This document shows positions 5,598-50,834 of a stretch of DNA of 64,000 bases, in pieces. Source of the stretch: Henricia sp. BOLD:AAB3569 (taxonomy: Eukaryota; Echinodermata; Asteroidea; Spinulosida; Echinasteridae); the NCBI GenBank assembly GCA_037783545.1, contig JBBELK010001083.1:388956-452955 (forward strand). Direction: 5' to 3'. A program made the position numbers and the translations under genes. The notes under the pieces were generated by a model. It was not told where the DNA came from. It made no database searches and saw nothing but the letters and a program-made list of their open reading frames with translations. Each line of letters starts with the position of its first letter. The stretch's first letter is position 1.

Positions 5598-5829
5598 GAA
5601 AATGGAGTTTTATTCGTTGGTAACGCCCCTCACTATAGACAAATTGCAATACCTTTGTTAACCTAATTTATGCCTGGCATTGTTCGCATACTCTGTAGTC
5701 AGTATACAGGTCACTGCGCTTACTGAAGCATGTTCACATAAAACCCAGTGCATTCCCCGAGCCTTCATTTCAGGTCTACCGTTCCACTGCTAACTACCCA
5801 TTGAGATTTGCTTAACTTCACGTTAAGTT
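5598..5829 (+). repeat. 232-bp repeat L1
   Basis: Matches 6371-6602 over its full length without indels by eye, and 6790-7020 as a clearly diverged third copy. Confidence 0.9.
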
Positions 5830-5981
5830 CACCGCGCACCACTTGCTAGCATTGCTTCTATTTTACCCACTATGTCCGTTCATCATGAAGGCTCTTTTAG
5901 CATTCAACAGTAATTCAATCAATTTAAAAACATATCTGCACCTAATGCTCCCGAAGACAAGTCGTCCGGGAAAGAGATTAA

Positions 5982-6212
5982 CGTGAAGCTGGCTGGTTTA
6001 CTGCTCAATACAAGGATATAAAGCCAAGAGCAGACAGCGGAGCAACGGAAAGATTAGAGATCGCTAAAGACGCCCAACTCAAGGAGCTGGAGGGAAGAAA
6101 GAAACGCAAGCGAGCAATCCCCCAACCGTCACCGACAAGATGGTTCAAAGAACAAAACTGGTCGTTACGATACTCTTTTTCGAGGTCTGTACAACAACCA
6201 CTGCACATATAA
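5982..6212 (+). CDS. Open frame of 76 codons without ATG
   Basis: Between repeats L1 and R1. The frame opens after TAA at 5979 and ends at TAA at 6210. The middle is rich in charged residues, including the basic stretch GRKKRKR, and is followed by WFKEQNW. AATAAA at 6268 lies downstream on the same strand, inside R1. It has no ATG, so it could be an internal exon or remnant of an element gene. No family recognised. The 84-codon open frame on the opposite strand (6005-6259) looks like its shadow. Confidence 0.2.
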   Translation, partial: REAGWFTAQYKDIKPRADSGATERLEIAKDAQLKELEGRKKRKRAIPQPSPTRWFKEQNWSLRYSFSRSVQQPLHI

Positions 6213-6234
6213 CCTTTGTTTTGTTTCAAAATGT

Positions 6235-6374
6235 CATCCGAACACAGACACCATCCCATGCTGTATTAATAAATTACTTAAAACCAAGTACTTATTGTTT
6301 TTGTCTTTATTGAGGTAGTTGGTTTAGAATGAAACTGCTTTTCGTTCGTATGAGCAAAGCGAAGCAGAACGAAA
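6235..6374 (+). repeat. 140-bp repeat R1
   Basis: Matches 11317-11456 without indels by eye. It contains AATAAA near its start and a short hairpin near its end (TTTCGTTC with GAACGAAA). It abuts repeat L2, giving the head-to-tail junction. Confidence 0.9.
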
Positions 6375-6602
6375 ATGGAGTTTTATTCGTTGGTAACGCC
6401 CCTCACTATAGACAAATTGCAATACCTTTGTTAACCTAATTTATGCCTGGCATTGTTCGCATACTCTGTAGTCAGTATACAGGTCACTGCGCTTACTGAA
6501 GCATGTTCACATAAAACCCAGTGCATTCCCCGAGCCTTCATTTCAGGTCTACCGTTCCACTGCTAACTACCCATTGAGATTTGCTTAACTTCACGTTAAG
6601 TT
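6371..6602 (+). repeat. 232-bp repeat L2
   Basis: Second copy of L1, joined directly to R1 with a four-base overlap (GAAA). Confidence 0.9.
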
Positions 6603-6789
6603 TCCACGTATTTTCCGTCCAAATTTCTTTTTTATTCACAGGCCTCCTATGAGCTTTAACTGGTAAGATGCCCGGACTGTGACTGCCTTTTGCCGCGTTA
6701 TAGGGAATTCGAAATCCGTGACGTCATCGCGCGTGCACTGTGGGTACACTATACTGCTCAGTTTTACAACGCATTCTTGCCGTTTCTGA

Positions 6790-7020
6790 AGTTGCGGATC
6801 AATTTAGCTTTATCCGTTGGTAACATCTCACTATAGACGAAATCCTCTACCTTTGTTAACCTAATTCACGCCTTGCATTGTCTGCATACTCTGTAGTCGG
6901 CATTCAGGTCTTTACGCTCACTAAAGTATGTTCACATAAAACCTTGTGTATTCTACGAGCCTTCAGTTTGAGGCATACCTATTCCACTGGTAACTATACC
7001 CATTGACATTTGTTTAAAGG
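6790..7020 (+). repeat. Diverged third copy of the 232-bp repeat
   Basis: Same order of words as L1 (CCGTTGGTAAC, CACTATAGAC, CTTTGTTAACCTAATT, ACTCTGTAGTC) with many substitutions and small indels, hence much older than the L1/L2 pair. Confidence 0.75.
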
Positions 7021-8270
7021 ACGTGTTAAATAAGGTTTTTATTAAATATAATTATAGTACAGGGTGTGTTTTACACATTACGATCAATTTCACAAAAAAA
7101 AAAAAGAAAAAAAAAAAAAAGACACACAATAACAGAGGAAATATCCATTGACTTGTGTACAAAATTGTCATTTTCGGTGAATTCTTGGTGTTATGATCTG
7201 TAACAGTTTACCGAGTTTGTTTAGTATGTCAGTTGCAACAATCCCAACAAGTTTGTTTGGGTCAGAAATGGATCAGTAGGCTACTGCTACTGTTTGAAAT
7301 GTGATGTTCTTTGTTTGTTTGTTTGTTTGTTTTTTAAACTGTGGTTTCTCTCTATGACTAGCAATAAGGAGCGCCCTCGTATGTCAAGCAAATTTCGTCG
7401 AGTGTGTAGTCTTTATTATATAGGCGTGAATATGTGCTATTACACATATATAATATAGGTACTCTTCCATTTTAATTAGCGCAAAACAAGATATAGCGTG
7501 TTGAACTAAGACTAATCAGACTTTAATAATTCTTTGCTGGCGCAATCTGTCACTGTGAGGGCGCTTCATAGTTAATCGCATCTTCGAGCTCTCTTGTATT
7601 CAGTCACATACACATGTACATGTACACGATTTCGCGGGAAACGGCTAATTTATAATATGCTTATCTCGGCTACCGATTGCTCTGTTTATGCAATAAAAGT
7701 AGTTTTTGGAATTTACAGGCAATTATCTGTAATGTGAAATGACGTATTCAACGACATTTTAATTTTTCCCCCAAGTCCTATTAGTCACAGGATATCCCGG
7801 TACAGTTTCGAGCAGAGTCCCACCCACTCTACCCTTCAGCTACACTTCATTCCATCCCAGGACAGCTGAAAACAATACTCCCAGCATTTGCCGGCCCATC
7901 TTGATCTGGTGTAGTCCCAACTAAGATCAGCGAGCCTGATACAGCACGAGGGTACTGCAACTCGGGCATCATTCAGGATGAACATAAGTGAGATGACGTC
8001 ATAAAGGTGCGATGTAATTATGAAGAATGTACCAGTAGCCAATAGTGTGATACTGTGAAAGTGTAAGAAAAATTAATAGCCCATGCTCTGTTCTGGGAAG
8101 AATTGGTGCATATGGTTATCAGTTATCAAGGAAGGAAATCAAGTTCCTTTCGTTGCTTTCTCTCTCCCATCGTAATTGTAAACAAGTTTGCATTGTCAGA
8201 GAAATCCTTTGTTAGAATCTATACAAAAATTGTTCAATTCCAATATACTATTCGCATATCGCATAGCCTA
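7021..8270. other. Interior of the insertion: poly-A, (GTTT)n and unassigned DNA
   Basis: A-rich tract near 7088-7121 and a (GTTT)n microsatellite at 7310-7335. The rest has no recognised gene. The open frames at 7836-8042 (minus) and 8103-8294 (plus) show no domain. Confidence 0.5.
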
Positions 8271-8271
8271 T

Positions 8272-8540
8272 GGGCAAAAGACGCCTTATACTAAATGTGA
8301 GTGATCTCGACCCTTCGTTTTCAACATGCATTTCAACTACAGAAATGGAAGAAACGTCTTCAGTTCTTTTCACAGAACGCACAATTATCGTTTATATATT
8401 TCTATACCAATCCTCGGGCAAAGATGCCTTATATTAGATTTTAGTAATCTCGACCCTTCCTTTTTAACATGCAATTTAACTACAGACGTGAAGAAACGTC
8501 TTCAGTTATTTCATAAAACGCACAATATATATCTAAAATA
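8272..8540 (+). repeat. Diverged tandem duplication, period about 144 bp
   Basis: Copy 1 starts GGGCAAAAGACGCCTTATA at 8272 and copy 2 GGGCAAAGATGCCTTATA at 8416. Both continue with ATCTCGACCCTTC, ACATGCA, AACTACAGA and GAAACGTCTTCAGTT in the same order. The two open frames here are by-products of the repeat. Confidence 0.75.
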
Positions 8541-9400
8541 GGGTTATCATCGTACAAATGTCGCACTCGACTATCGAAGATACCTCGGATTCACATGGGT
8601 CAATTAAATGAACATTCTCCCTTATTTGGCTTCTCGTCTGCGCCCTTGCTCTTTACTATAATAATGATGAAACGGCTCCTTCTCCACTGTCGATCGTGTG
8701 ACATTCTTATTGCCAAATCTAGACGATGGGTTTGTGTGTTGTACAAGCTTTAGATACTGATACAAGGATTCATTTGGTCTATAGAAGTACGAAAGATGCA
8801 TAAAACCTTGAATGAACGGGATTTGGTAAGCACACTGATTGACCTTAGTGATGGATGGATGAAATCTCGAGAATGGTTCTTTTATTGATAAATTATGGGA
8901 ACTTTTACGTATAGACTGTTTTGCTAGTTTAATTAATACAAGATAATTGACTCTTGATTAGCCCTAACACTATTCAACCCTCCAGAATAAATAATGTTAC
9001 ATACACCCTGGGGAGTTATAGACACGTTTGCTAACTTCAGATTGTGACATATCTTAAGGGGCTGCCTATTACGTTCCCTATTTTTTAGACATAGCGGGAT
9101 GGCTCGGTTGAAAGCATGTCACTTTAATATTACCTGATCAAACCGGTTTATCCAATTTTCTCCCAGGTCCAAAACAGACACTTTTCCGGACGGCTGTAAT
9201 CTGGTAATTTAAAAGCAATTTTAGCCAAAAACAAATGACTACTGTCTAATTCAAATCCCAAAGAAAGTAGCCTATATAGAACGATGCGTTTTTAGACTTT
9301 CATTTTAAGCTCTTGTCATATTATCCAAGCCAAAGGTGACATAAGCCTATTATGAGCTACATAATAGCTGTCGTGATTCGTTATTAGATAATAATAATAA
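8541..9400. other. Unassigned interior of the insertion
   Basis: About 860 bp of AT-rich DNA with no ORF of note, no inverted repeat and no copy elsewhere in the window. Confidence 0.4.
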
Positions 9401-9715
9401 TGATTAGATTTGTATAACGCACATATCCACCCTGCAGGGTGCTCAAGGCGCTGTTACCATTATTACCGATGCCATCAGGGAATCACCAGAACCATTTCGC
9501 TTCAACTAGGTGGCTGCTGGTCAGACGCACAACCCTATCAGCAGTTAGATTGTGGCATTCCCCTTAACAGCTTCCCATATATCGCTTGGGTTGACGAGGC
9601 AACTGGGATTAACTGCCCTGCCCAGGGACACAGACACGTTGGTCGAAGTGGGGCTCGAACCTAGGTACATGTACTCCAAACGCTTATACGGTCTCCACAG
9701 TACGCGGTCATGAGA
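9401..9715 (-). mobile_element. tRNA-derived SINE with L2/CR1-like tail
   Basis: On the minus strand it reads a tRNA-like head containing GGTTCGAGCCCC, then CCCTGGGCAGGGCAGTTAAT in the body, and a 3' end with CGTTATACAAATCTAATCATT followed by ATT repeats. That tail resembles the conserved 3' end of L2/CR1-mobilised SINEs. Short open frames across it (9410-9664 plus, 9545-9835 minus) are not genes. Confidence 0.65.
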
Positions 9716-11316
9716 CTTGAATTCAAGCATCCGCATTTGGCTAAGAGAGAAATAACCAGAGAACAGATAATGCCCAAAAAAAAAAAAAAAAGACACATTC
9801 CTGCTTAAATATATTAAAATCCCTTGCAAATACATTGAAAATTAATATTACGACTTGGAATTCATATCCTATATCTTTTATTTCTTTCAGAGACACTCGT
9901 GCAGTGACTGTATGCTCTGTGATTCTTCGATTGCTGTTTTCCTGGGAAATTGGGTAAACAAGTACAGAGGAATATGTATGTTAAAAAAGAGAAAACCATT
10001 GCTAGTTGGTCAGTATAATGAATTAGAGCCGGACAAAACAAAACCAAAAAAAAAAAAAAAATCCGAGGAGCCTGGAGGGCTACAGTTTTCAAAACTAGAC
10101 TGGATTGAAACCGGACGGATAATCCGAAGAGCCTGGAGGGCTACAGGGTTTTATGTATGGTACTCTATCCTTAAGGTCCAACCTATTTATGCAGAACATA
10201 GGTTTTATTGTTCTTATTCCTTTGTATTCTGATAATTATCAACAAATATTGGCCTTATTAGGCCTAATCCAAATAAACGTCTCCGTTTGTCCGTAATTTC
10301 CACAAATCTTAAGTTCCCTGAAGCTTGTTTTTTTTATTTTTTTTTTATATATTTTTTTTTTTACATTAGAGCTACAATTCCATTTAACGCTGTTTAAAGT
10401 CTAGATTAGTTCACTGAGGTTCATTTGCAGTGACATCAACATGTTGCAAATAAGTGATCGCCCTTTAAGACCACTCACTCGCTCTGTAATAATACCTGTG
10501 TACTTCAATAATAATTCTTTTAATCAAAAAGCAAATTTGATTTCAATACGCATGATCTTATTTTACATTGAATATCGGTTTGTGTCTAGATATACTTCAC
10601 TGTAGTTCCTTGCAAATATGCCAGTTGCAATAATTGCATTATGCTTTATAATATTTTATTGATGATTATTCTTTCAAACAATTTTAATCCCAATATGCAT
10701 TCGCATAATTGTGCTAATACAATTGTCTCAATGTCCGAAGAGCCTGAAGGTTGTTTATACAGAAATTAATACATGTACATGAGTTCATACCACGTATAAT
10801 TAACTATTATCAGAATAACTCATTCACTTTCTATAATTATATGACATGAATGTCTTGAGCTCACTCAGTTGAGGACTAACTGTTTGGTTTTAGAGGGAAG
10901 CGAGTAACCTTTACTTTGATTATACTTATTACAAGATGTATTTCTTTTTGTTTCATTTAAACTGAGATCTTCTCGCAAAGAAACCAATTCAGGCACCTCG
11001 GTAAACAATCCAGGTAATGGGACAATGAACAAGGGAGTGCACTCTCTTTTGGTATCCTAGGATGCACCCACGTTTCCTCCTCAATCAGAAAAAAAGGGGG
11101 TTTTTCGTGGCCTCCGAGTGCCTGTAGCTTTGCTGCATGGACTGATACCGAAAGCCTTGCCACGTTCCTGGAGAGATTACCGTTCTAAATCTTCGAACGT
11201 GATTTTGCCTAATATCATATAATTATAGTTCATTGAAATTTTGCGATATGCGTTCTGATTATGGTGTAAATATAGTTAATTTTGTTATCAACAAAAAGTG
11301 TTGTAAGGGTAGTTGG
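9716..11316. other. Unassigned interior with A/T homopolymers and a 26-bp direct repeat
   Basis: A-runs at about 9777-9792 and 10046-10061 and T-runs at 10327-10362. A 26-base word around GAGCCTGGAGGGCTACAG occurs near 10061 and, with one change, near 10120; a weaker relative lies near 10732. The open frames in 9855-10232 cross these tracts and have no domain. Confidence 0.5.
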
Positions 11317-11456
11317 CATCCGAACACAGACACCATCCCATGCTGTATTAATAAATTACTTAAAACCAAGTACTTATTGTTTTTGTCTTTATTGAGGTAG
11401 TTGGTTTAGAATGAAACTGCTTTTCGTTCGTATGAGCAAAGCGAAGCAGAACGAAA
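11317..11456 (+). repeat. 140-bp repeat R2
   Basis: Right end of the insertion, matching R1 at 6235-6374. Module B resumes at 11457 with TTTCCGTTTTCTTTTGAGG, as at 31240. Confidence 0.9.
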
Positions 11457-14164: not shown

Positions 14165-15198
14165 TAAGTTAAACTTGGATCAGTCAACTTTGCCGACTGT
14201 CTGCGTTAAGCGGGACTCCCACTGTACGATGTTTGCCACGAATTTCCAACGATTAGGTACGATTTGTTACGATTGGTATAGACTCTATACACAATCGTAC
14301 CAAATCGTAGCTAATGGTTGGAAATTCGTGGCAAACATCGCACAGTCGGAGGCCCGCTTGACATGAATCTAGGTCACAACATTTGAAAAATCTAACTGTT
14401 TCTTTTGAGTGAAAAGATGTTTTTAAAGCAGTTTTTGAAGACAAAATTTAAGAATTAATAGTTGGTCTGGTAACGTTTCTCAGTCTGTATGTTTCGTAAT
14501 AGTGGATGCGTAGTAATACGACCACTTGCAAGCAGACACGGCGTCTCAGAAACTAGTCTGGTAACGTACTTCAACCTACATGTTTTGAAATAGTAGGTGC
14601 ATGGTAATCACGACTAATTGCGAGCACACGGCAGTGTCTAAATCAGGTGCTCGCTTAAGGAAAACGCTCTTATTTCTATGAGGATGGTCGAATTTTGGGA
14701 TTTCTTTTTGTAATAAGCACATTGACAATACAAGAAGTACATGTGTAAAATAAAAATAGAAAAAGTGGAAAAATCTAAGATATTTTGTCCTTTGTTGTTT
14801 TTGGCATGGACCTTATTACCATCTCCATATTATATACTTTATTTATCAACACAAGCAAAAAATATAAATTATTACAAACCAATTTACAAGAAGGAAAAAC
14901 AGTAGGGCAGTTGTTTGACCACTAACTATAACCAAATCCCCGAAATGTGCAAACAAACGATTCTGTTTCGTTTGTAATGCCTCATTTTTAGCAGACGACG
15001 AGAAATATTTCGTCTGCTACGAGTAGTCGTGTTTCCCGAAGATTATAACATAATATGCACGGATTCCTGATAGGTAACAGACGAAATAACGCCCTCAATG
15101 TAATGATTAAAAAACTTTTCATTCGAAAATATTAGATTATTAGTATGTTAATGAGTGATTTTGTATACACCAGCCAGTGTTGGAATGCATTATATTGC
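14165..15198 (+). mobile_element. TE-B copy, left-truncated and cut by BEL LTR
   Basis: Shares the TE-B interior (from GTTAAACTTGGATCAGTC to ACACCAGCCAGTGTTGGAATGC) with 20646-21896 and 24594-25605. The left TIR is missing. The right part stops at the BEL LTR fragment at 15199. It carries the MITE-A at 14209-14358. Confidence 0.75.
14209..14358. mobile_element. MITE-A, palindromic
   Basis: About 150 bp that fold almost entirely on themselves: ends AGCGGGACTCCC and CGGAGGCCCGCT, inner arms GCCACGAATTTCCAACGATT and its complement. Confidence 0.85.
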
Positions 15199-20420: not shown

Positions 20421-20706
20421 TGATGCGACATAGTTAGCAAGGTTTGACAACTCGTGTCCTCTGTTACATTCCAGATACATATAGGAGGTAACATGACTAC
20501 AACCCACTCCATATTGCCACGTGGCAACATGATTTATATGTTACTGTCTCGCAAACTTGGGGGTAGGGAGAGGCGGAGTGGTGGAGGGCATCTACCGTGT
20601 GGGCTCGATCCAAATGGTACTTGCGCTATTGCGCAAAGTGCGTAAAGCCTAGTTTCCATATACAAGTTAAACTTGGTTCAGTCAACTTTGGCGACAGTCT
20701 GCGTTA

Positions 20707-21068
20707 AGCGGGCCTCCCACTGTGCGATTTTTGCCACGAATTTCCAACGATTAGGTAGCCTACAATTTGTTACGATTGTGTATAGACTCTATACACAATC
20801 GTGCAAAATCGAAGCTAATGGTTCGAAATTCGTGGCAAAAATCGCACAGTGGGTAGCCTTTAGTCAAGGCGTCCGTGGCGAGGTTTGTTTTGTGCACTGT
20901 TTTGCTATAGCGCTTGAGAAAAGACTAACATTCATACTGCAGACTGTTGTCTGGGCGGACAGTCCGTGCGTGGTAGCCTTTCCCCAAGCGTTGGTAAAAC
21001 TGACTGCGCGCATATATATAACTCGCCACGGCAGCCTTGACTAAAGGCTACACAGTGGGAGGCCCGCT
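20707..21068. mobile_element. MITE-A interrupted by MITE-G
   Basis: Left end AGCGGGCCTCCCACTGTGCG, right end CACAGTGGGAGGCCCGCT. The right arm is split by a 197-bp insertion with its 9-bp duplication. Confidence 0.85.
20854..21050. mobile_element. MITE-G, 197 bp, 29-bp TIRs, 9-bp duplication
   Basis: Starts TAGCCTTTAGTCAAGGC and ends GCCTTGACTAAAGGCTA; with the adjoining CCGTGGCGAG the TIRs reach 29 bases with two mismatches. CACAGTGGG is duplicated at 20845-20853 and 21051-21059. An 8-9 bp duplication points to a hAT- or Mutator-like mobiliser; no transposase inside. Confidence 0.9.
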
Positions 21069-23453: not shown

Positions 23454-23655
23454 ATTTGCTTTTCACCTCATCCAGATTTCCCAAACTCGATCATGTACAT
23501 TTGTTCACATTTGTATCAAATTAATTCACCTCGGCGGGTTATAATCACTTATTTAAAACTAGCAGCAGTCTGAAGACCACAGCCGAAGACGCCGCCCGCC
23601 CCCCGAACCCCCACCCCCTCAATCATACAGATGGCTATTGCTTGAGTCAATGTTA

Positions 23656-23807
23656 AGCGGGCCTCCCACTGTGCGATTTTTGCCACGAATTAGGTGCGAT
23701 TAGGTACTATTTGTTACGATTGTGTATAGACTCTGTACACAATCGTACCAAATCGTAGCTAATCGTTGGAAATTCGTGACAAAAAATCGCACAGTGGGAG
23801 GCCCGAT
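23656..23807. mobile_element. MITE-A with TTA duplication
   Basis: AGCGGGCCTCCC ... GGGAGGCCCGAT, flanked by TTA at 23653-23655 and 23808-23810. Its unit 3 counterpart is 43062-43213. Confidence 0.85.
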
Positions 23808-29693: not shown

Positions 29694-30161
29694 TATAGAC
29701 TTGTGTTTACTATATACATTTCTCAGAAAACCTGCTTAGAAGCTAATTTGAATATTCATGAGACTATGTCATTGGAAAGCAGCCAATATCACAAGAGCTT
29801 ATTGTTGCGGTATGATGTAATGGTAGTACAGTCTATTGTTGGTAGCTGGGGAAATTCCCTTGTATTGCTTTTTTTCTGAGAAGAGTTAAGACTCGGAGTT
29901 TCTAGATTTTTCTTTGGAAAATTACATAATCTTTCAAGAGTATGTAAAGTGGGCACTTAGATAGTATTGTCAGCACTTAATGTTTAGAAGGAGGACGTTG
30001 TTGTGATTATTATCGACGCGGGATTTGTCGACGGCGTTTTGATTGAGCCTTCAACGAAAGGATTTTCTGTCCACGTGTGCCGGACGTTACCCGTGCATTA
30101 ATTGTTTCTTCGTGCGATCCGTTGTTTCTTGAGAGAAAGAGACCGTGTTAATCTTGGCTAA

Positions 30162-30312
30162 AGCGGGCCTCCCACTGTGCGATTTTTGCCACGAATTTCC
30201 TACGAATTGGTACGATTATCGGAGACTGCCTATAGACTCCACACACAATCGTACCAAATCGTACTCAATCGTGGGAAATTCGTGGCAAAAATTGCACAGT
30301 GGGAGGCCCGCT
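30162..30312. mobile_element. MITE-A, 151 bp, exact empty site known
   Basis: AGCGGGCCTCCC ... GGGAGGCCCGCT, flanked by TAA at 30159-30161 and 30313-30315. Unit 1 has the uninterrupted TTGGCTAAGGAGTGC at about 4668. The 3-bp TAA duplication is typical of PIF/Harbinger elements. Confidence 0.95.
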
Positions 30313-30882
30313 TAAGGAGTGCTCATCGCTGGATTTCTCGGGACAGAGACTTAAAGAGCAGTTCGTCTTGTTGTCGTCTCGTCGTGGCCGGGAACTTTTC
30401 TCAGCATATTGCAGCGCCAAGAATCGTGATCGCCAAATTTTGTGAGTGGAGCCGCCGTTCTTCTAAGCCGTCAAGTCCTCACCTTAGTTTTCGTAAGATC
30501 TTGTCTTTACATTTCGTATAAGATCTTTCTTTAAGTGCTCACAACAAATTAACCTTACTTAATCACTGTGCATTTATTTTTGATTCTCAGATCATAACAT
30601 AAATCATTGTTTCTTTGTTCTTACATCATAGTGTGATCTTGTTTGACTCCTTTGTTGCGTTTGGCGAGTTTCAATTTATTTTCTTGTTATAGTCTGGAAC
30701 TTTCCGGACCGTAACAACTTGGCTACTATCCACCAGGAACTAATAAAAATCGGTCCAGAATTAGCTTGTCGTTGCCGTCTGTAGATCGCTGCTTGAAGAG
30801 TCGTTTAGAACTAGAAAACAGCTATAAGAATCCTCACATTTACACACTGTTCAACACATTCTGATCAACAACCAAGTATGCA

Positions 30883-31236: not shown

Positions 31237-33534
31237 GGAATTTCCGTTTTCTTTTGAGGAGTTGGCATCATGTTTTTTCTTCACGAACGTACACCGAAGC
31301 AATACGCCCTTGTGTGTGTGTGCACTCGGGCTATTTGCCGTGCTGCGCGGGGCAAATATCCTACACTCCACGGTATAGCCTGCCGTAGCACGCGCTCGCT
31401 CCCGTTCTCCGGACTCTCGAAACAAACAATTATGTTCGAATTTTCATACTTATGTTTAACTTTGTTTCATACCTGTATAAATAGTCTCTCTCTTGTCAAT
31501 TACTTATAAATATTGGGGGGAAATCAGAGTTGAATTTGGTGCAGTTCTGCAGTAACAAACATTTATACGGCTGGAAATACAACTAACTCACAAGACCACG
31601 TGACTTTTCGGAACCAGAATTTGGTTCCGAAAAGTCACGTGACCTTGAATTTTTCAAAAGTGCGAAAAAACGGCCAAATTTGACGGCGTCTTTTCAGGAT
31701 ATATCTAATTTACTCTCGAAGGCGCTTCAGAATAATGTATGGGTCTATTTTGTCCCAAGACAAGTGAAACGCGCAAAATCAAACATTTAGTATGTGTGGT
31801 ACGTAGCCTACATGTATATCAAGGATTTCACATTTTCAACATTGACCTCCAAACTAATTCATCATATTATTAATTCATCATTAAGGAGTAAAAACGGCTT
31901 TACATGCGTACATGGAAATAATTATCTTTGGCAAGTTATAAAGACCTTTTCTTTAAAACAGCCGAGTACTGATAGTATAATTAAACCACCAGTAATAGCA
32001 ATACTTATAACAAGGAAACGTTTATCCCGAGCCATTATTTTCCTTTATTTCCAAGACTGATAATCGGCAAAATAGACGACTGCTGTTACATTTTCCAATG
32101 CCAAGTCACAATATTAACAATACATTTATCTAACTGTGGTTTTGTCAAATAGAGGACTTTTGTCACAATTAAATGCACACTGTGGCTTCAAAAACTTTGG
32201 TATTTTTAATGCCTTTAAAGTTCAAGCTACATGGATGACAAAAATCAAGAGATTTTCGAAATGCGTGTTTCTAGTAAAATTGCACTTATAAAAAAACATC
32301 AGACTGCTTATATTTTGCTGATGGTTTGTGATTTTAGTTTGAATGATGGTAACCAAATATGTATTTAGACAGTAACCAAAATGTATAGCTTATAATAAGT
32401 GATATTATATGATAGAATGAACCTCGATTTTATGACTGGAAAAGCTACTGTAACAATCAAACCTCATGATACAATCAAACCTTGAAAATAGCATTGTTAC
32501 ATACTTTTTCTTTAACAAGCAATTAGATTCGATCAAAATTTTCGTTTAAATAATATAGGAACCAACTGAAACCCAAGACCCAAACCCAATACATGCATAG
32601 TTAAGATATGAGCATTTTACAATTTAAACCCATTTGTTTTATTTTGTATGCATGCAGATATTTAACATACACGTTTCTAAAACTTTCTACCACATAAGTG
32701 CCTAAATTGCCAATGTATTTAGATCTACAATGTATGTAAACTGTGTCAAACAATTATTTCGAAAACATGACACAGACTATCAAAAGATGATAAATCCATA
32801 AATTTACTTTTAATCTGCAAGTGTAAACAAAAAGGCTAGAAGCAATTTTGAAAGAAGACCACCTTGAATCAATCCAGTCATTTCAAATAATTAATATTTT
32901 TATTCTGGCAATCACATAGATGAAAATCTAAACTCCAAAGCAGATTTTGGTGAAGATGAATAAATTTGTTCTTAATGATTGTGTTTTGGAAGAGTAGGGT
33001 GGAGCAAGTTGACCAACCTCTAGGCAATGAACGCAAGCTCAGGCCAATTTCTGTGTAGCTGCAGAGTGCTATTTTTACAGATGTCCTGTAAAATGGCTTG
33101 ATCTTGATCTTGATGCAGTAACTGAAGCATTTTGGAAAACCTGAGCATGAGAATAAATATGTACATCTCAATGATAATGCTGATAATTTACTAAACGAAA
33201 AATTATCAGCAGTTGACCATTACTGAATTTGTGTGTACAAAACTGCCAGCGAAATTTTGTTCTAGTATAATTTTCACCTTTTCACTCCTTTTTATTGCGG
33301 TTATAAACTTGTAACATTTGCCCAAAATTAGTAATGGTCAACTTCTGAATTCGTAAAATAGGTTTGCTATAAATTTATCATTCGCCAAAACACATTTCAG
33401 ACCGACGTGACATGCACATTAACTATATAGACAGTCCAGCTGCACACTTTTCTTCTCACATTTCCAGTCTGTTTTCTCGTCTTGAGACGCATCCCAGGGT
33501 TCATGATTGGTATTTTGAAAATCAGAAATGTTCA
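31237..33534 (+). repeat. Module B, copy 2
   Basis: Matches 11457-14164 except for the missing 418-bp block. The perfect CACGTG-ended inverted repeat is at 31598-31641. No gene recognised. Confidence 0.8.
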
Positions 33535-33582
33535 CAGATAAGTTAAACTTGGATCAGTCAACTTTGCCGACTGTCTGCGTTA

Positions 33583-33733
33583 AGCGGGCCTCCCACTGTA
33601 CGATTTTTGCCACGAATTTCCAACGATAAGGTACGATTTGTTACGATTGTGTATAGACTCTATACACAATCGTACCAAATCGTAGCTAATGGTTGGAAAT
33701 TCGTGGCAAAAATCGCAGAGTGGGAGGCCCGCT
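33583..33733. mobile_element. MITE-A inside TE-B
   Basis: AGCGGGCCTCCCACTGTACG ... GGGAGGCCCGCT, same position within TE-B as at 14209 and 20707. Confidence 0.85.
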
Positions 33734-33734
33734 T

Positions 33735-34804: not shown

Positions 34805-35131
34805 TGTTCTGCACCGTCTGTGCGGTTTGCCGCCCTCTGTCGGCTGTTTGTGTACAGTTTTATTCCACACAACTTTAGTCGATTTGTTAACAATCACGTT
34901 CGTTTTTCCTCACACTTTGCAATACAACCTTTTTATGACGAAATTAGGAACTGCCAACTTTGTTTAGCGCCTGTGTACGCATTGTCTTTTCACACCATTT
35001 CATTGACGGAGTGCCCACGAGTCTATTTGAATTAAAACGGAGCTTAGACGCTAATTCCTGACTCCAAAGTCGTTCTTGAAAGGAGTTTGGCTGGTTGTCA
35101 ATTTACAGTTAGACACACTGTAAAGAGGACA
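34805..35131 (+). repeat. BEL 5' LTR
   Basis: Starts TGTTCTGCACCG, ends GAGGACA (TGT...ACA), 327 bp. It differs from the 3' LTR at a handful of substitutions plus small indels (for example ACAACTTTAG against ACACAAGTAG), so the copy is not very recent. Confidence 0.9.
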
Positions 35132-35239: not shown

Positions 35240-36395
35240 ATGGAAGCCGACAGATCATCGCAGACGTATTCTAAGGTCACGAGGAGTGACGAGGTCATCT
35301 GCAGCACTGAGTGAAGCTGCCAGGGCACGAGGACGGGCTGAAGCAGCACGCGTTCGTGCAGAATTTTCAGGGCAAGAGGCAAAACTGGCATTAGAGAAGG
35401 AAATTGGATGCAGAGAATTGTATACTCACTCATCAGAAAGAGGCAGCAGCAGCAGTTGCCGAAGCTGATGCATTGGAGGTGGCTCTAGAGGGAGACAATA
35501 TACTTGGTGGCATTAAGTCAAGTTTGCCGCTATCGCAGAAAGACGTCATGCAGCGTACTGAAGAGTATGTTGAACGACACATGCCAGTTTTGCAGCCGAT
35601 AATCAACTTCCCGCCCACCTTTCACAGCTCGCAAGCTATGCAACCAGTTTCATCGGTTTTTCCATCAACCAATCAAAACCTGCAACAGGACTCAAAACCG
35701 GTAGTGTTGCCATCACTTTTCCCCATCAAGACACAAATGGTGTCAACGCCTAGCAACCAACGACCTGCATACACCAATGCACCGCCCGAGACCAAGACGG
35801 CACTAACAAACCAGAGGATATGAACAACTTTGCGAAATACCTCGCAAAACGCGAACTTATTACCACAGGTTTGTCACATTTTGACGACCAACCTGAAAGT
35901 TTCAGGGCATGGCAGTCATCATTCCGCAGTGCTACCAATGATCTAGGGCTCACGGCGAAGGAGGAATTGGATCTGCTACTAAAATGGTTGGGGAAAGAAT
36001 CATCTGAACATGTCGGGAGAATCCGTGCTGTACATGTTTACGATCCAGAAACGGCTCTCAGAAAATCATGGGAAAGACTGAAAGAACACCATGCAGCACT
36101 AGAGGTCATAAAAAGCATTATTTTCCACAAGTTGGACTCTTTTCCTCGAACAGCAAGCAGGGATCATCTCAAGCTAAGACAACTTGGCGACGTGCTGAGA
36201 GAAGTAGAAAGTGCCAAGGAAGATGGGTATTTGCCCGGTCTTGCATATCTTGACACCGCACGTGGAATCAACCCCATCGTGGAAAAACTGCCACATGGTC
36301 TGCAAGAAAAATGGATCAGCAAGGGCTCCAGGTACAAAAACCAAAATGATGAACACTTTCCTCCATTCTCCTTTCCTCCATTCTCTCATAGATGA
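35240..36395 (+). pseudogene. gag: BEL Gag-like region, frameshifted
   Basis: ATG at 35240 opens a short N-terminal piece. Coding then passes through at least two other frames: an Ala/Arg/Glu-rich, probably coiled-coil part (35286-35468), a Pro/Gln-rich part (35404-35823), and 191 codons from 35820. The last part has FDDQPESFRAWQSSF and the KWLGKESSEH...RIRAVHV region typical of the Gag-like DUF1759 family of BEL elements. A 15-bp direct duplication around TTTCCTCCATTCTC (36356-36385) lies where the frame breaks into the next segment. Capsid-type function is known for the family; this copy cannot make an intact protein. Confidence 0.85.
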
Positions 36396-37539
36396 ACGCA
36401 AGACCTTTCTACGGGAAAAGGGAATCTGGTTCAAGTGCTGCGCATCATCATCTTACCTCGCCAAAGATTGCGGAATTGCTACAAAATGCAACGAAAGTGA
36501 GAGTGATCGCCACATCGCAGTAATGCACCCAGGCCCTGCTCCTTGGACACTAAATGCCCCTGTCCCTGCTCCACATCATGGCGGGGAGGAGGAATCTGGG
36601 TCTACCATCCCTTCTGCAGTCACATCCAAGTGCACTGAAGTTTGTGGCGAAGGCCTACCAGCACGATCATGCTCCAAAATATGCTTGATGAAAGTGTATC
36701 CCCAAAATAAGTCCGAAAGTGCAGCCAAAATGTACGCCATAATCGACGATCAGAGTAACAAGTCTTTGGCAAGGTCGGAGTTTTTCGATCTCTTCAACAT
36801 ACAGTCCAGTTCATCGCTCTATTCCCTCAGAACATGTGCCGGAGTTACTGAGATGACTGGAAGGAAAGCAGATGGCTTCCAGATTGAAGCAGCAAATGGA
36901 GGAGTTAGTCTAATCCTACCTCCACTCATCGAATGCAATGAGATCCCCAACAACAGAGCTGAAATACCGACGCCAGAAGCAGCTCTTCATCACTCTCACC
37001 TGAAGCCTGTGGCGTCTCTCGTCCCAGAATTGGATCAGAATGCTGAAATTCTTCTGTTACTTGGAAGAGACATTCTGAGAGCTCACAAAGTAAGAGAGCA
37101 AGTCAATGGCCCGCATGACGCTCCCTTTGCTCAACGACTTGACTTGGGCTGGGTTTTAGTCGGCGACGTTTGCATAGGAAATGCACACAAGCCTACCATC
37201 AACAGCTTCAAAACCCACATCTTAGAAAATGGACGTCCGTCACTTTTCACTCCGTGCCCAAGCCGGATCCATCTGACAGAAATGATGAGTTACAGCAGGG
37301 AGCCTCACGAAATCGCACCCCAAGCGTTCAACGCAGGTCCCGTAAAAAAATCTGCAGATAAACTCGGGAGTGACGTATTCCAAGGAACACCCGATGACAA
37401 CAAGCCAGCTTTGTCCATTGAAGATACGATCTTCCTCAAGACTATGGAAAAGGAATTCTATAAAGACGAGGCCAACAGTTGGGTAGCTCCTTTTCCATTT
37501 AGAGTGCCAAGACGTCCTCTTCCTAACAATCGTGAATAA
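36386..37539 (+). pseudogene. pol: BEL zinc knuckle, protease and start of reverse transcriptase
   Basis: Part of an open frame that begins at 36211 in the shadow of Gag; meaningful coding starts near 36386. A CC...C cluster (codons encoded near 36436-36471) matches the BEL zinc knuckle, but the expected His is Tyr. The aspartic-protease-like DUF1758 domain follows, with IIDDQSN at 36742-36762 as active-site motif. The C-terminal part (NSWVAPFPFRVPRRPLPNN) is the fingers start of the reverse transcriptase. TAA at 37537 interrupts the frame; the next segment continues in the same frame. Confidence 0.85.
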
Positions 37540-38466
37540 GCCGTTAGCCGACTCACCTCACTGCGACGCAGTCTAGACACGAAACCTGTGATGAAAGAGC
37601 AGTACTTGGCTTTCATGAATAAGCTGTTGGAAAACGATCACGCAGAGGTAGCGCCCCAACTTCAAGCGGGAGAAGAGTGCTGGTACCTGCCAACATTTGG
37701 TGTGTATCATCCGCAGAAGCCAGACCAAATCAGGGTAGTATTTGACTCGAGTGCCAAGCATGATGGCATCTCCCTCAACGATGTCCTACTCTCCAGCCCT
37801 GATCTTAATAACAGTCTCATGGGAGTTATAATTCGTTTCAGGAAGGAACCAGTCGCAGTGATCGCAGACATCCAACAGATGTTCTACTGTTTTGCCGTAC
37901 GAGAGGATCACAGAAATTACCTGAGATTCCTGTGGTACAGAGATAACAACTTGACAAAGGACGTCATCGAGTACAGAATGAAGGTCCATGTCTTTGGAAA
38001 CAGCCCATCCCCCGCAGTAGCCATATATGGTCTGAGAAGAGCCGCCCAAGAAGGTGAACCTGCCCATGGCTCAGACACCCGAGAATTTGTTGAGAGGCAT
38101 TTTTACGTCGATGATGGACTCACTTCAGTCCCCACAGATGAGCAAGCTATAGACCTCCTGCAGAGAACCCAATCATCATTGTCAGAGTCAAATTTGCGGC
38201 TGCACAAGGTTGCTTCAAACAGCATATCTGTGATGCAAGCATTCCCCCAAGAAGACCATGCCAAAGGTATGAAAGACTTTGGTCTTGGAGATGAGACAGG
38301 ACCGGTCCAGCGCAGTTTGGGATTATGCTGGGAGACGGCACCTGACACATTCACATTCAAGGTTTCAACAAAGGATAAGCCATTCACACGCCGAGGTATC
38401 CTGTCAACATTGAACAGCCTTTTCGGGTGGGACACGCCACTCCCTGAAGTTCGGATGAATGAATGA
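37540..38466 (+). pseudogene. pol: BEL reverse transcriptase
   Basis: Same frame as the previous segment, after its nonsense codon. Counting from Met at 37588: motif A around D94 (VIADIQQMF), motif B FGNSPSPAVA, motif C YVDD at residues 173-176. The catalytic aspartates are all present. Near 38420 the frame runs from STLNSLF directly to GWDTPLPE: the region with the conserved DPLG motif that normally joins RT to RNase H is missing, an internal deletion of some tens of codons. TGA at 38464 follows. Confidence 0.9.
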
Positions 38467-38881
38467 GAGGCATGGAAAGATTCCCTTCAGTGTTTGGAAC
38501 AGCTCCATATCCCTCGCACCTATGCCTCAAAATCCCTCACAATTAAGAGTACAGAAGACCGACTTGTGTCTATTCTCGGATGCATCGACTCGAGCCATCG
38601 GCGCAGTGGCCTATCTCAGAACCATAGACGAATCTGGGAAGGTTGAAATGGGATTTGTTTTAAGAAAATCCAAGCTGGCTCCCTTGCTACAACCAACAAT
38701 ACCACGTCTAGAACTGTGTGCTGCAGTGCTGGCCATGGAGATGGCAGACTTCATCCTGGACGAGATTGACTTCAAACCAGAAGCAGTGAAGTTCTATTGT
38801 GACAGCAAGGTTGTTCTCGGGTACATTTGCAATGAAACAAGCGTTTCTACGTGTACGTACACAACAGAGTTCAGCGGATGA
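38467..38881 (+). pseudogene. pol: BEL RNase H region, frameshifted
   Basis: Coding continues in the RT frame for about 30 codons (EAWKDSLQ...YASKSL), then shifts near 38555 to the frame containing FSDASTRAIGAVAYL, LELCAAVLAMEMAD and FYCDSKVVLGYI. These carry the acidic residues of the RNase H-like fold. A second frameshift near 38840 leads into the integrase frame. Shifts of this kind show decay after insertion. Confidence 0.85.
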
Positions 38882-40656
38882 GGCAGTCAACCAACCCAGA
38901 ACAATGGCACTACGTACCAACAGAGCACAACCCGACCGACCACGCTTCTAGAGCAGTCTCGGCATCTCAGCTCACGGATACATCATGGTTCACAGGACCG
39001 ACCTTCTTGCTCAAAGCAGACGATGCCAAGAAGGAAGAGAATCCTTTCGACTTGATCAGTCCAGAGATGGATGCAGATATTCGGCCAGAAGTGAGAAGTT
39101 TTGTCACCCAGACTGACAAGAGACGGCTTACGTCGGAGCGATTTGAGCACTTCTCGACATGGAACTCTCTCTTAAGGGGTGTTGCATTCCTCATCCATGT
39201 CGCTCGTTCCTACCAGAACTCAGAAAATAAGTCTACCGAATGCAGAGGTTGGCACGTATGCCATAAGCCACGCACTCCAGATGAGTTGGACCAGGCCAAA
39301 CAAGTCATTCTCAAGACAATTCAAGGAGAAGCCTACTCTGACGAGCTTGCCGCTCTCGACCAGAAGAGAGACGTACCCCAAACAAGTTCGATCCTCAAGC
39401 TGAATCCCAATGTGGAAAATGAGCTCCTGATAGTAGGCGGTCGTCTGAAGCATGCCCAATTGGAAAGCCACGAAAATCATCCCATCTTCATTCCAAAGCA
39501 CAGTCACATTGCCACGCTTCTGATACGACACTACCATGAGCAGGTGGAACATCAAGGTCGCCATTTTACCGAAGGAGCCATTAGATCAGCAGGCTTTTGG
39601 ATTGTTGGCGCCAAGAGGCTCATCAGCTCCGCTATACACAAGTGTGTAACCTGCAGAAAGCTACGTGGAAAAATGGAAAACCAACAGATGGCGGATCTAC
39701 CACCTGAGCGACTCAGTACGACCCCATCCTTCTCGTATGTGGGTCTAGATGTCTTTGGTCCATGGACAGTTGCCGCACGTCGAACCAGAGGAGACCACGC
39801 ACAGAGCAAGCGTTGGGCTGTACTGTTAACTTGCATGAGCACCAGGGCAGTGCACTTTGAAGTTCTAGAGTCCATGGACGCTTCCAGCTGTATCAACGCG
39901 CTGAGAAGATTCTTTGCAATCCGAGGACCAGCAATACAACTGAGGTCAGATTGTGGAACTAATTTCATTGGAGCCTGCAACGAACTCCAGTTTGGTAAGA
40001 AGCACCCAGAAGACACCGACGTCCACCGCTACCTCGGCAGTCACGGATGCACTTGGGTATTCAACCCACCTCACTCATCACACATGGGAGGTTCCTGGGA
40101 ACGCATGATTGGAGTGACGCGTAGGATCCTAGACTCTATGCTGTTCCACAACAAATCCCCTCTGACGCACGAGACCCTGTGCACCTTCTTAGCCGAAGCA
40201 GCAGCTATCATCAATGCAAGACCCCTTGTTCCAGTCTCAACGGATCCAGAGTCACCATTCATTCTGACACCCGCAATGCTGCTCACCCAGAAGTCCGGCA
40301 CCCCACCACCTCCAGGGAATTTCACCGAGAAGAACCTCTTCAAGAGTCAATGGAGACAAGTGCAGAGTCTCGCTACCAAGTTCTGGTCTCGTTGGAGTCG
40401 GGAGTACCTAGCAACCCTACAAAGCAGACGAAAGTGGACGCAAACACAGCGCAACCTCCAGGAGGGAGATCTTGTCCTCTTGAAAGATAAACAAGTCGTC
40501 CGTAATGAGTGGCCCTTAGCGCTGGTTTCTTCAGTCCTTCCAGGTGATGACGAGAAGGTCCGCATCGTAGAAGTCAAGGTTGCTGCTCAGGGAGGCGTCA
40601 GGAAATTTGTGAGGCCAGTCACCGAGCTTGTTCTCCTGCTACCCAACGAGGACTGA
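38842..40656 (+). CDS. pol: BEL integrase and C-terminal domain (601-codon open frame from 38851)
   Basis: The longest intact frame in the window. Residues 1-40 finish RNase H (YVHNRVQRM, VPTEHNPTDHASR). An H2C2 zinc-binding domain has HYHEQVEHQG and CVTCRKLRG near residues 230-270. The DDE integrase core has D300 (GLDVFGPW), D367 (RSDCGTNF) and E417 (GGSWERM), all present. A DUF5641-type C-terminal domain (WSREYLATLQ, LVLLKD) follows and ends at TGA 40654. As part of a broken polyprotein it is unlikely to be expressed with RT. It is the 3' end of pol, not a separate gene. Confidence 0.92.
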   Translation, partial: RFYVYVHNRVQRMRQSTNPEQWHYVPTEHNPTDHASRAVSASQLTDTSWFTGPTFLLKADDAKKEENPFDLISPEMDADIRPEVRSFVTQTDKRRLTSERFEHFSTWNSLLRGVAFLIHVARSYQNSENKSTECRGWHVCHKPRTPDELDQAKQVILKTIQGEAYSDELAALDQKRDVPQTSSILKLNPNVENELLIVGGRLKHAQLESHENHPIFIPKHSHIATLLIRHYHEQVEHQGRHFTEGAIRSAGFWIVGAKRLISSAIHKCVTCRKLRGKMENQQMADLPPERLSTTPSFSYVGLDVFGPWTVAARRTRGDHAQSKRWAVLLTCMSTRAVHFEVLESMDASSCINALRRFFAIRGPAIQLRSDCGTNFIGACNELQFGKKHPEDTDVHRYLGSHGCTWVFNPPHSSHMGGSWERMIGVTRRILDSMLFHNKSPLTHETLCTFLAEAAAIINARPLVPVSTDPESPFILTPAMLLTQKSGTPPPPGNFTEKNLFKSQWRQVQSLATKFWSRWSREYLATLQSRRKWTQTQRNLQEGDLVLLKDKQVVRNEWPLALVSSVLPGDDEKVRIVEVKVAAQGGVRKFVRPVTELVLLLPNED

Positions 40657-40715: not shown

Positions 40716-41037
40716 TGTTCTGCACCGTCTGTGCGGTTTGCCGCCCTCTGTCGGCTGTTTGTGTACAGTTTTATTCCACACACAAGTAGTCGATTTGTTT
40801 ACAATCACGTTCGTTTTTCCTCACACTTTGCAACATTTTTATGACGAAATTAGGAACTGCCAACTTTGTTTAGCGCCTGTGTACGCATTGTCTTTTCACA
40901 CCATTTCATTGACGGAGTGCCCACGAGTCTATTTGAATTAAAACGGAGCTTAGACGCTAATTCCTGACTCCAAAGTCGTTCTTGAAAGGAGTTTGGCTGG
41001 TTGTCAATTTATAGTTAGACACACTGTAAAGAGGACA
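40716..41037 (+). repeat. BEL 3' LTR
   Basis: 322 bp, TGTTCTGC to GAGGACA. About 60 bases separate it from the pol stop. Unit 3 follows directly. Confidence 0.9.
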
Positions 41038-42962: not shown

Positions 42963-43061
42963 CACTAGCAGCAGTCTGAAGACCACAGCCGAAGACGCCG
43001 CCCGCCCCCCGAACCCCCACCCCCTCAATCATACAGATGGCTATTGCTTGAGTCAATGTTA

Positions 43062-43213
43062 AGCGGGCCTCCCACTGTGCGATTTTTGCCACGAATTAGG
43101 TGCGATTAGGTACTATTTGTTACGATTGTGTATAGACTCTGTACACAATCGTACCAAATCGTAGCTAATCGTTGGAAATTCGTGACAAAAAATCGCACAG
43201 TGGGAGGCCCGAT
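43062..43213. mobile_element. MITE-A with TTA duplication, unit 3 copy
   Basis: Counterpart of 23656-23807; TTA at 43059-43061 and 43214-43216. Confidence 0.85.
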
Positions 43214-48549: not shown

Positions 48550-49698
48550 TACGATTGACTTGTATCCAGGTACTTTAACCTCACAAAACGTCCCAAATTG
48601 TTTCATAAATTGTAAATTTTGAGGTTCAGAATGTTTCGATTTACTGATTTAATTTTCGGTTTGTGGAAATAAAGCAAATAAAATCCATGGGCTTTCCCAT
48701 TCAGTGGCACGTCCGTTCCGATTGACTTTTTTTTAGATGTGGAGCGGGAACCAGTCTAGCGCCGTATTCGAAAGGACGGATCACGTAGGGATTTTAGCAG
48801 GGATTACACACTACGAACAAACGCAACAAATATTAATATTTTCAAACAGGAAGAATTTATTCCTCTCCCAACACGGTTGTAAAACATTCAAATGCAGTTT
48901 CAATGGGTATATGATGCATTTTAATATTGGCGGCGTACTTGAACGTTCATAAAATCCCTGCATACCCTACAAATAATGGTACGATCCGTCGCGCAATGAC
49001 ACTCGAGAGCCTTGTCAACTGGGCGCGCGGCGAAGCACTCATTGCTAATCCGATAAGAAGAAAGTAGTTTAAAGATATATACAAAACCAGAAAAAAACGT
49101 AAAAAAGACCCTTACATTTTCTTTTTAACATCGATATATATGTTTTTACCAATCAATAAGGATTCTTACTGTGTAGCTCTGGTTAAGTATTTTGGGTGTT
49201 ACACGGACGAGGAAATTCCGACTGACCTAATTCTATAGACTTGTGTTTACTATATACATTTCTCAGAAAACCTGCTTAGAAGCTAATTTGAATATTCATG
49301 AGACTATGTCATTGGAGAGCAGCCAATAGCACGAGAGCTTATTGTTGCGGTATGATGTAATGTATAGTACAGTCTATTTTTGGTAGCTGGGGAAATTCCC
49401 TTGTATTGCTTTTTTTCTGAGAAGAGTTAAGACTCGGAGTTTCTAGATTTTTCTTTGGAAAATTACATAATCTTTCAAGAGTATGTAAAGTGGGCACTTA
49501 AATAGTATTGTCAGCACTTAATGTTTAGAAGGAGGACGTTGTTGTGATTATTATCGACGCGGGATTTGTCGACGGCGTTTTGATTGAGCCTTCAACGAAA
49601 GGATTTTCTGTCCACGTGTGCCGGACGTTACCCGTGCATTGTTTCTTCGTGCGATCCGTTGTTTCTTGAGAGAAAGAGACCGTGTTAATCTTGGCTAA

Positions 49699-49838
49699 AG
49701 CGGGCCTCCCACTGTGCGATTTTTGCCACGAATTTCCTACGAATTGGTACGATTATCGGAGACTGCCTATAGACTCCACACACAATCGTACCAAATCGTA
49801 CTCAATCGTGGGAAATTCGTGGCAAAAATTGCACAGTG
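49699..49838. mobile_element. MITE-A, right end deleted
   Basis: Left TAA at 49696-49698 retained. About 15 bases, including the right terminus and right TAA, are missing compared with 30162-30315. Confidence 0.85.
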
Positions 49839-50431: not shown

Positions 50432-50834
50432 GTAAGCATAGGTTAAAAACTTGATTCATTCAAATTCATATCCGGTTAAAGGTACACACCGGCCTACTGT
50501 TTACATGATTTAGTGATGTAGCAGCATTGACAATACTTTTTTGGTGGTCGTTGTGAAAAAAGATCATCAAAATATCCCGTAATTTACTAAAGAAGTGCAA
50601 AATTAACAAAAACGGTCAAAAGACGGGTTATACGCTTTACCAGCCGTTGCAACTACGCGCGTACCTCACGACTTTGTCACAAACGATTCGCTCTTCTCCT
50701 GCTCAGGATATCTCAAATTTTCTGTTCACGATTTTACTGGACAGCTTGACGACCGAGTAGGAATTTCCGTTTTCTTTTGAGGAGTTGGCATCATGTTTTT
50801 TCTTCACGAACGTACACCTAAGCAATACGCCCTT

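Follow-up and report, generated by a model that had tools for sequence, protein, structure and literature searches.

The window analyzed here is a 64,000-nucleotide stretch of the Henricia sp. BOLD:AAB3569 genome (contig JBBELK010001083.1), and comparison of this stretch with itself shows three related host units. Unit 1 carries an insertion that is lacking from the other two units at the matching site. The insertion is exactly 5855 bp long (5602-11456), has no target duplication and consists of a short 773-bp unit, X, and a long 5082-bp unit, Y. The two are arranged head to tail and have the same ends, a left repeat A and a right repeat B, so that the whole reads A1-X-B1/A2-Y-B2 with the join AACGAAA/ATGGAG. 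A1 and A2 are 100% identical over 232 bp (5598-5829 and 6371-6602), B1 and B2 are 100% identical over 140 bp, and the middles of X and Y have no mutual similarity at the self-comparison cut-off used. A third copy of A (A3, 81% identity) is found inside Y, here and in other Y copies, and may be the remnant of an inner copy that has lost its right end.

The boundaries of the element were fixed by comparing other genomic copies, which start with ATGGAG and end with AACGAAA. Hence, the insert occupies 5602-11456 between host sequences TAGAAA|TTTCC. The host flanks read GAATAGAAA|TTTCC in unit 1, and the empty sites read GAATAGGAA|TTTCC in unit 2 and GAGTAGGAA|TTTCC in unit 3. The joined flanks match the empty site at 44 of 46 positions in unit 2 (across 31240|31241) and likewise at 44 of 46 in unit 3 (50763|50764). 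A preliminary description of this DNA had proposed an insertion with A1/B1A2/B2 split direct repeats and no target duplication, an exact empty site in unit 2 and a head-to-tail junction at 6371-6374, all of which hold. The A residues that it took to be shared at the site turned out to be the element's own terminal A residues (1+3), which lie beside host A, and the third A copy, A3, had escaped it.

The source genome (740 Mb, 2104 contigs) was searched with the A, B and X sequences, for which 40 of 193, 40 of 281 and 38 of 38 candidates were scored, respectively, and 40 stretches (L009-L048) as well as later small pieces were read for copies. The 17-mer of the B end, with at most one mismatch, has 273 matches in the genome versus 0 for the reversed control. 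As identical ends recur genome-wide, the repeat pattern is not a product of chance. By script, 24 two-ended insertions were identified, three of which are duplicate loci, and the remaining 21 independent insertions comprise 14 Y units alone, two X units alone (L028, L032) and five X-Y pairs. The search for other copies with the same ends, which the preliminary description had recommended, has thus been answered in the positive. Copies devoid of the internal junction, which it had named as contradicting its view, make up 16 of the 21, but in-situ loss by recombination between the repeats could also yield them. Several further copies stand outside the script count. They are paired copies that are interrupted, rearranged or cut by the stretch (L023, L026, L027, L038, L042, L045), single Y copies that are split across stretches or have an unmatched left end (L029/L030, L037, L039/L041) and one-ended copies such as L033-L035, L040 and L044. 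In L049, an older locus, the units follow each other as short-short-long, the stretch ending within the last one, and diverged lineages (L049, C82) have the X-Y pair too.

Insertion is precise and does not duplicate the target, as both the flanks and the empty sites demonstrate. At the 21 sites, the left and right flanks are identical in 9, 2, 1, 0 and 0 cases for k = 1-5, and mispaired flanks give 8.35, 2.45, 0.65, 0.15 and 0.05, i.e. the true flanks are no more alike than the control. The base at -1 is A in 14 of the 21 sites and the base at +1 is A in 11. When the left flanks of seven loci were searched as one query, matches elsewhere were found for three, all of them X-Y pairs (L022, L024, L025), and four of these places were read. 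The empty site matches at 46 of 46 positions for L022 and at 46 of 46 in each of two copies for L025. In the empty copy of L024 the letters agree across the join with a 2-base shift; the script's placement scored only 17 of 46 because the slice begins two bases late. Thirty further matches to the L024 flank in C673, one of which was read, extend 7 bases beyond the join. This insertion is embedded in a long run of repeated host DNA, in which the repeats are often spaced by about 3 kb (C673:1212-160301). The L025 target, CTCACAGT|GGCTCG (ACAGT|GGCT), fixes the ends unambiguously and has no base at the join in common with the element junction. A shared AAA core is therefore not required for insertion.

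At the junctions compared, the two units stand in one order. The base-exact junction AACGAAA/ATGGAG recurs at 11 loci, the window included. X is the left unit at 13 of 13 exact head-to-tail junctions among the matches listed, with no case of the order Y-X (the lists of A- and B-end matches, 100 each, were compared by eye, and the entries were checked by script against the X units). The pair has moved as one unit at least once, since both the X units and the Y units of L024 and L025 are sisters, and the two loci have different targets. Their Y units are sisters in the Y tree (100/99), and their X units differ at one position in 780 (98/98, with the bootstrap not settled). In the Y tree, which has 24 rows (9 paired, 15 single) and in which 11 of 21 inner branches are weak, the paired and single labels are intermixed, with 8 changes vs 7.5 for shuffled labels, at least 5 of them forced by well-supported branches. 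For instance, the single copy L015 and the paired copy L027 are sisters (100/100). The end branches have a mean length of 0.0041 in singles (13 rows) vs 0.0020 in pairs (7 rows; p=0.052), as copied from the tree for 20 of 24 rows with L016, L042, L045 and L048 left out as diverged, and by this measure the single Y copies may be older than the pairs.

Repeats of one locus tend to resemble each other more than those of different loci. A1 and A2 differ by a total of 3 positions within six loci vs a mean of 13.7 between them, a value as low being reached in 8 of 720 permutations, and the addition of L049 gives 5 vs 95.3 (8 of 5040 permutations). This comparison was made without L031 and L042, in which A2 is truncated or A1 lies outside. 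B1 and B2 differ at 0-1 positions in the window, L022, L024, L025, L027, L031 and L049, at 13 in L042 and at 3 in the rearranged L026. At C122 and at C1087, the two A copies do not open with the same letters.

The right end of each unit forms a terminal hairpin with an 8-bp stem that carries compensatory changes and a loop, GTATGAGCAAAGCGAAG, that is nearly constant in diverged copies. The left and right arms of the stem read TTTCGTTC/GAACGAAA, TTTCATTC/GAATGAAA, TTTAGTTC/GAACTAAA, TTTTATGC/GTATAAAA (with one G-T), TTTCATGC/GCATGAAA or TTTTATGC/GCATAAAA. Across 14 distinct variants 94.6% of the cells are paired, and 12 cells in three pairs are changed on both sides, the cell number reflecting sequences rather than events. 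The observed cells and score were not attained in any of 500 shuffles. Subsets of 9 and 11 rows retain 4 cells (1/500) and 8 cells (0/500), respectively, and unpaired changes occur in C275, C82, C4, L026 and L042. The terminal hairpin is under constraint. An att-like pairing across the B/A junction found no support, as in nine rows the arms show no two-sided change, the A-side arm itself is invariant and the bases of the B hairpin covary with each other instead. An inner CTGCTT/AAGCAG palindrome was similarly unsupported (1 cell, 224/500 shuffles). Furthermore, the two ends share a subterminal inverted match, which on the right side falls 36-48 nt from the terminus. The left motif AGTTTTATTC, at a distance of 4 nt from its end, is opposed by GAATAAAACT at 38 nt from the right terminus. 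Several older copies match perfectly, and young copies carry a single change (G.T, taken as a pair).

Table 1. Features of the insertion and of the matching empty sites (positions are those of the window)
Feature	Position	Strand	Remarks
Short unit A1-X-B1	5602..6374	+	773 bp, ATGGAG...AACGAAA, no recognised protein; alone at L028, L032
Long unit A2-Y-B2	6375..11456	+	5082 bp, ends as X, no recognised protein; alone at 14/21 independent sites
Left-end repeat A1	5602..5829	+	Identical to A2
Left-end repeat A2	6375..6602	+	Identical to A1
A3, diverged internal left-end copy (81%)	6801..7017	+	No right end precedes
Right-end repeat B1	6235..6374	+	Identical to B2
Right-end repeat B2	11317..11456	+	Identical to B1
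Head-to-tail junction AACGAAA/ATGGAG	6368..6380	+	Identical junction at 10 further loci; at least 13 exact junctions among matches listed
Terminal hairpin, short unit: TTTCGTTC-19 nt-GAACGAAA	6340..6374	+	Covariation
Terminal hairpin, long unit	11422..11456	+	Covariation
Left subterminal inverted repeat AGTTTTATTC	5606..5615, also 6379-6388	+	End comparison
Right subterminal inverted repeat GAATGAAACT	11409..11418, also 6327-6336	+	GAATAAAACT in most older copies
Empty target site, unit 2	31240..31241	.	Joined-flank match
Empty target site, unit 3	50763..50764	.	Joined-flank match

The short and long units are noncoding mobile elements with shared ends. A Pfam search of 84 stop-to-stop frames of at least 38 amino acids (aa) in the insert gave nothing relevant (best E 0.0082, unrelated), in accord with the preliminary description, and recognised no reverse transcriptase (RT), tyrosine recombinase (YR) or other transposon protein inside it. 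Pfam gave nothing for the 101-aa frame of X either, and its 49 matches in the genome are X copies and short diverged pieces with no long coding frame. A scan of viral_contigs with the 28-mer of the left end gave no match. Long open frames in some of the other copies belong to other transposons and not to the element: the Gypsy-like and endonuclease frames in L035, the RT frames in L040 and L023 (LINE-like in our reading) and the DUF4817 frame in L038, which we take to be mariner-like. A weak GDSL/SGNH-like frame (L034:1272-1820, E 0.0038) lies downstream of a copy in which X is broken off near position 216.

Candidate partner enzymes were sought genome-wide. For YR genes, the best 141 of 474 candidates were scored. 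One, at C333, is separated from an A end by about 2.6 kb and was rejected, as about 660 bp of host DNA precede this A with no B; another, at C340, lies about 7 kb beyond a right end. The YR at C499, which precedes a B-like end by about 1 kb, was also rejected as a partner. The stretch on its YR side (query 1-688) is common to C380, part of it (261-689) occurs at over a dozen YR-adjoining loci, the similarity stops near 688, and C490 and C548 match the B side from 683 on. The shared stretch thus ends at the B side, and the YR belongs to a separate nested element, apparently a DIRS-like family inserted in a B-type element. Members of this YR family have inverted arms of about 80 bp near the end (L082 / C499:62629-63480 and over a dozen other loci). 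For Rep proteins, the best 150 of 173 candidate Helitron_like_N matches were scored, many of them in frames of >3000 aa. One such protein, at C330 (L071-L073), occupies a frame of >3000 aa with a 1499-aa open stretch preceding its Rep domain, and a minisatellite of about 50 bp is found on its 5' side.

We consider it rather probable that the insertion belongs to a non-autonomous Helitron2/Helentron-like (HINE-like) family. It is the end anatomy, which resembles that of Helitron2/Helentron (HINE) elements, that favours a non-autonomous rolling-circle family, and judging by this anatomy the elements would work most like rolling-circle transposons, a class membership that is favoured rather than proven. 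Each element extends from the left end ATNNAGTTTTATTCG to the right end GAATRAAACT...terminal hairpin. A Rep-type enzyme acting in trans would nick at the left end and copy one strand, copying would stop at the right-end hairpin, and the product would be inserted blunt, with no target duplication. At the locus in the window, two elements are fused head to tail. Copying past the first right end would make the pair move as one unit, and a start or stop at the inner ends would give single units. In this scheme we infer the enzyme, the strand copied, the rolling-circle step and an origin of pairs and singles by read-through. The presence of A3 in Y with no B before it fits tandem copies with 3'-truncated inner members. 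The relationship of pairs and singles can be read in two ways, either as a choice of start and stop during copying or as in-situ deletion between repeats that yields singles, and the longer end branches of the singles are a weak sign for the latter.

A number of observations weigh against this reading. The ends and targets are A-rich on the strand set by the inverted repeat, and the hairpin is located at the terminus itself, not 8-35 bp inside. Besides the counting of sequences noted above, the weaker hairpin measures are unremarkable (pairs with double change, 62/500; pair types, 134/500). The inverted match between the ends is short and arises by chance in 31 of 5000 shuffles and in 38 of 3000 genomic pairs (0.6-1.3%), and as it is nearly invariant, covariation cannot test it. 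Of the ends listed (the first 100 of 191 A-type and of 273 B-type, compared by eye), not one has any of the 150 scored Rep matches within 20 kb, and the smallest distance among them is about 35 kb, at C258. Slices of 4.5, 1.6 and 1.8 kb of the C330 Helentron contain no such end, although they may miss its ends. Finally, the alikeness of paired ends is not specifically predicted by the rolling-circle view.

A rival reading is a non-autonomous split-direct-repeat retroelement of the PAT/Ngaro kind. Here, A1-X-B1A2-Y-B2 would be the element, its repeats would be regenerated at each reverse transcription, a tyrosine recombinase would insert the circle and the singles would be later deletions between repeats. 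PAT/Ngaro elements are not known to make a target duplication, and they integrate at a core shared with the circle junction. The movement of the pair as a unit, the A1/A2 resemblance within loci, the B1/B2 differences of 0-1 at seven loci, the constant X-Y order, the absence of target duplication and the possibly greater age of the single Y copies (p=0.052) all agree with such an element. Nevertheless, we regard it as rather unlikely. No RT or YR is recognised inside the insert, and at L025, the one unambiguous join, the insertion occurred with no homology and hence no shared core. As both circle junctions would be alike, the order Y-X is expected as well, and it was found at 0 of 13 junctions among the matches listed. 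The hairpin covaries within B, and the B/A arms show no two-sided change. The YR at C499 is part of another, nested element, and the A end at C333 follows host DNA with no B. Paired ends are not always alike either, as seen from the 13 differences between B1 and B2 of L042 and the opening letters of A1 and A2 at C122 and C1087. Of the preliminary description, which had proposed a mobile composite integrated by a tyrosine recombinase as in PAT/Ngaro elements, the composite stands, having moved as a unit at least once and with repeats that tend to be alike within loci, and the recombinase and the class assignment are not supported.

An undescribed class of hairpin-ended transposons (e.g. using another HUH or single-strand mechanism) with the X-Y composite as its normal form is unlikely. 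The ends fit HINE descriptions only partly, being A-rich with the hairpin at the terminus, no partner was found among the matches listed, and the pair persists in the diverged lineages L049 and C82. However, most single features have precedent among Helitron2/Helentron elements, and the missing partner may be lost, diverged or overlooked. The stricter version, in which the X-Y composite is the true mobile unit of an undescribed class that is neither Helitron nor YR retroelement, hairpin-ended, with no duplication or shared core and with its own copying mechanism keeping the end pairs alike, appears more doubtful still. A chance landing of X beside an unrelated, older Y, at the left end of the latter, is very improbable. 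X and Y do each occur alone, but the base-exact junction at 11 loci and the left position of X at 13 of 13 listed junctions speak against chance adjacency, and L024 and L025, with sister X and sister Y at different targets, already contradict it.

Other observations concern the copies and the window at large. L027 is probably an interrupted rather than a 5'-truncated copy, as an A motif lies 904 bp before its X. The A-end repeats at C383 have one flank in common and are host duplications, not element tandems. The L033 copy breaks near position 220, with unrelated sequence beyond. Same-strand pairs of distant B-type ends (~76-86%), spaced by about 4-10 kb, are present at C118, C376, C244, C683 and C288 and perhaps form part of a wider composite family. 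Of the loci C80 and C738 (L080 and L081), C738 has a diverged right end that directly abuts host sequence, followed after about 110 bp by a left end of this family; in C80 the host sequence is continuous. Within the window, BEL/Pao-like retrotransposon frames (Peptidase_A17, DUF5641, integrase) at 35754-40653 are flanked by direct repeats that are 96.6% identical (34805-35131 / 40716-41037). A palindromic MITE-like repeat of about 150 bp is found in both orientations in the host units (14205-14362, 20703-20853, 23652-23805, 30161-30313, 33579-33734, 43058-43211, 49698-49838).

In summary, the genome contains a set of young insertions of a hairpin-ended element, several with empty sites, whose end structure is backed by covariation and whose fused units move together and, apparently, singly. 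Comparison of the copies could test rolling-circle-like start, stop and read-through, or homogenisation of split repeats.

Unlike canonical Helitrons (Helitron1; 5'-TC, 3'-CTRR, A|T target), the element has the ends ATGG...AACGAAA, or TTTCG...CCAT on the other strand. PAT/Ngaro elements (PMC4157794) have the same A1-B1A2-B2 repeat order, and our pair likewise moves as one unit (L024/L025) with repeats alike within loci, but they carry RT and YR, whereas the insert has no such protein and many units are single. In the accessible parts of the open-licence literature on split direct repeats and tandem Helitrons, we found no description of a two-unit hairpin-ended family. Published work describes head-to-tail junctions and tandem Helitrons (PMC5876387) and tandem copies with 3'-truncated inner members (PMC7492417). 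Helentrons are described with T-rich ends, TT targets and a palindrome 8-35 bp inside the end, and HINE elements as having subterminal inverted repeats, the left one at 2-4 nt and the right one at about 38-60 bp from the respective end (PMC4067079). The present family differs from these in its A-rich ends in this orientation (a TT target would require reading the opposite strand), a 5-kb unit with no recognised protein, the recurrent two-unit composite, a palindrome at the terminus and the lack of a matching autonomous Rep/helicase element among the matches listed and one sampled Helentron. It resembles Helentron/HINE elements (DINE-1-like; PMC4067079, PMC7492417) in the absence of target duplication, verified here by empty sites, in the positions of the 10-mer inverted repeats, at 4 nt from the left end and 38 nt from the right (with a single change in young copies), and in the right-end palindrome, here a covarying 8-bp stem nearer the terminus than described. 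It also resembles them in having no recognised protein, AT-rich targets, tandem copies and an inner left end (A3) with no right end. The surveyed FoHeli elements, Helitron2 of Fusarium oxysporum (PMC5148889), encode Rep-Hel and have other terminal sequences, but they share with our family asymmetric inverted repeats, a hairpin at an end, reported joined ends and a T/A-rich target, and two FoHeli elements lie 2 bp apart.

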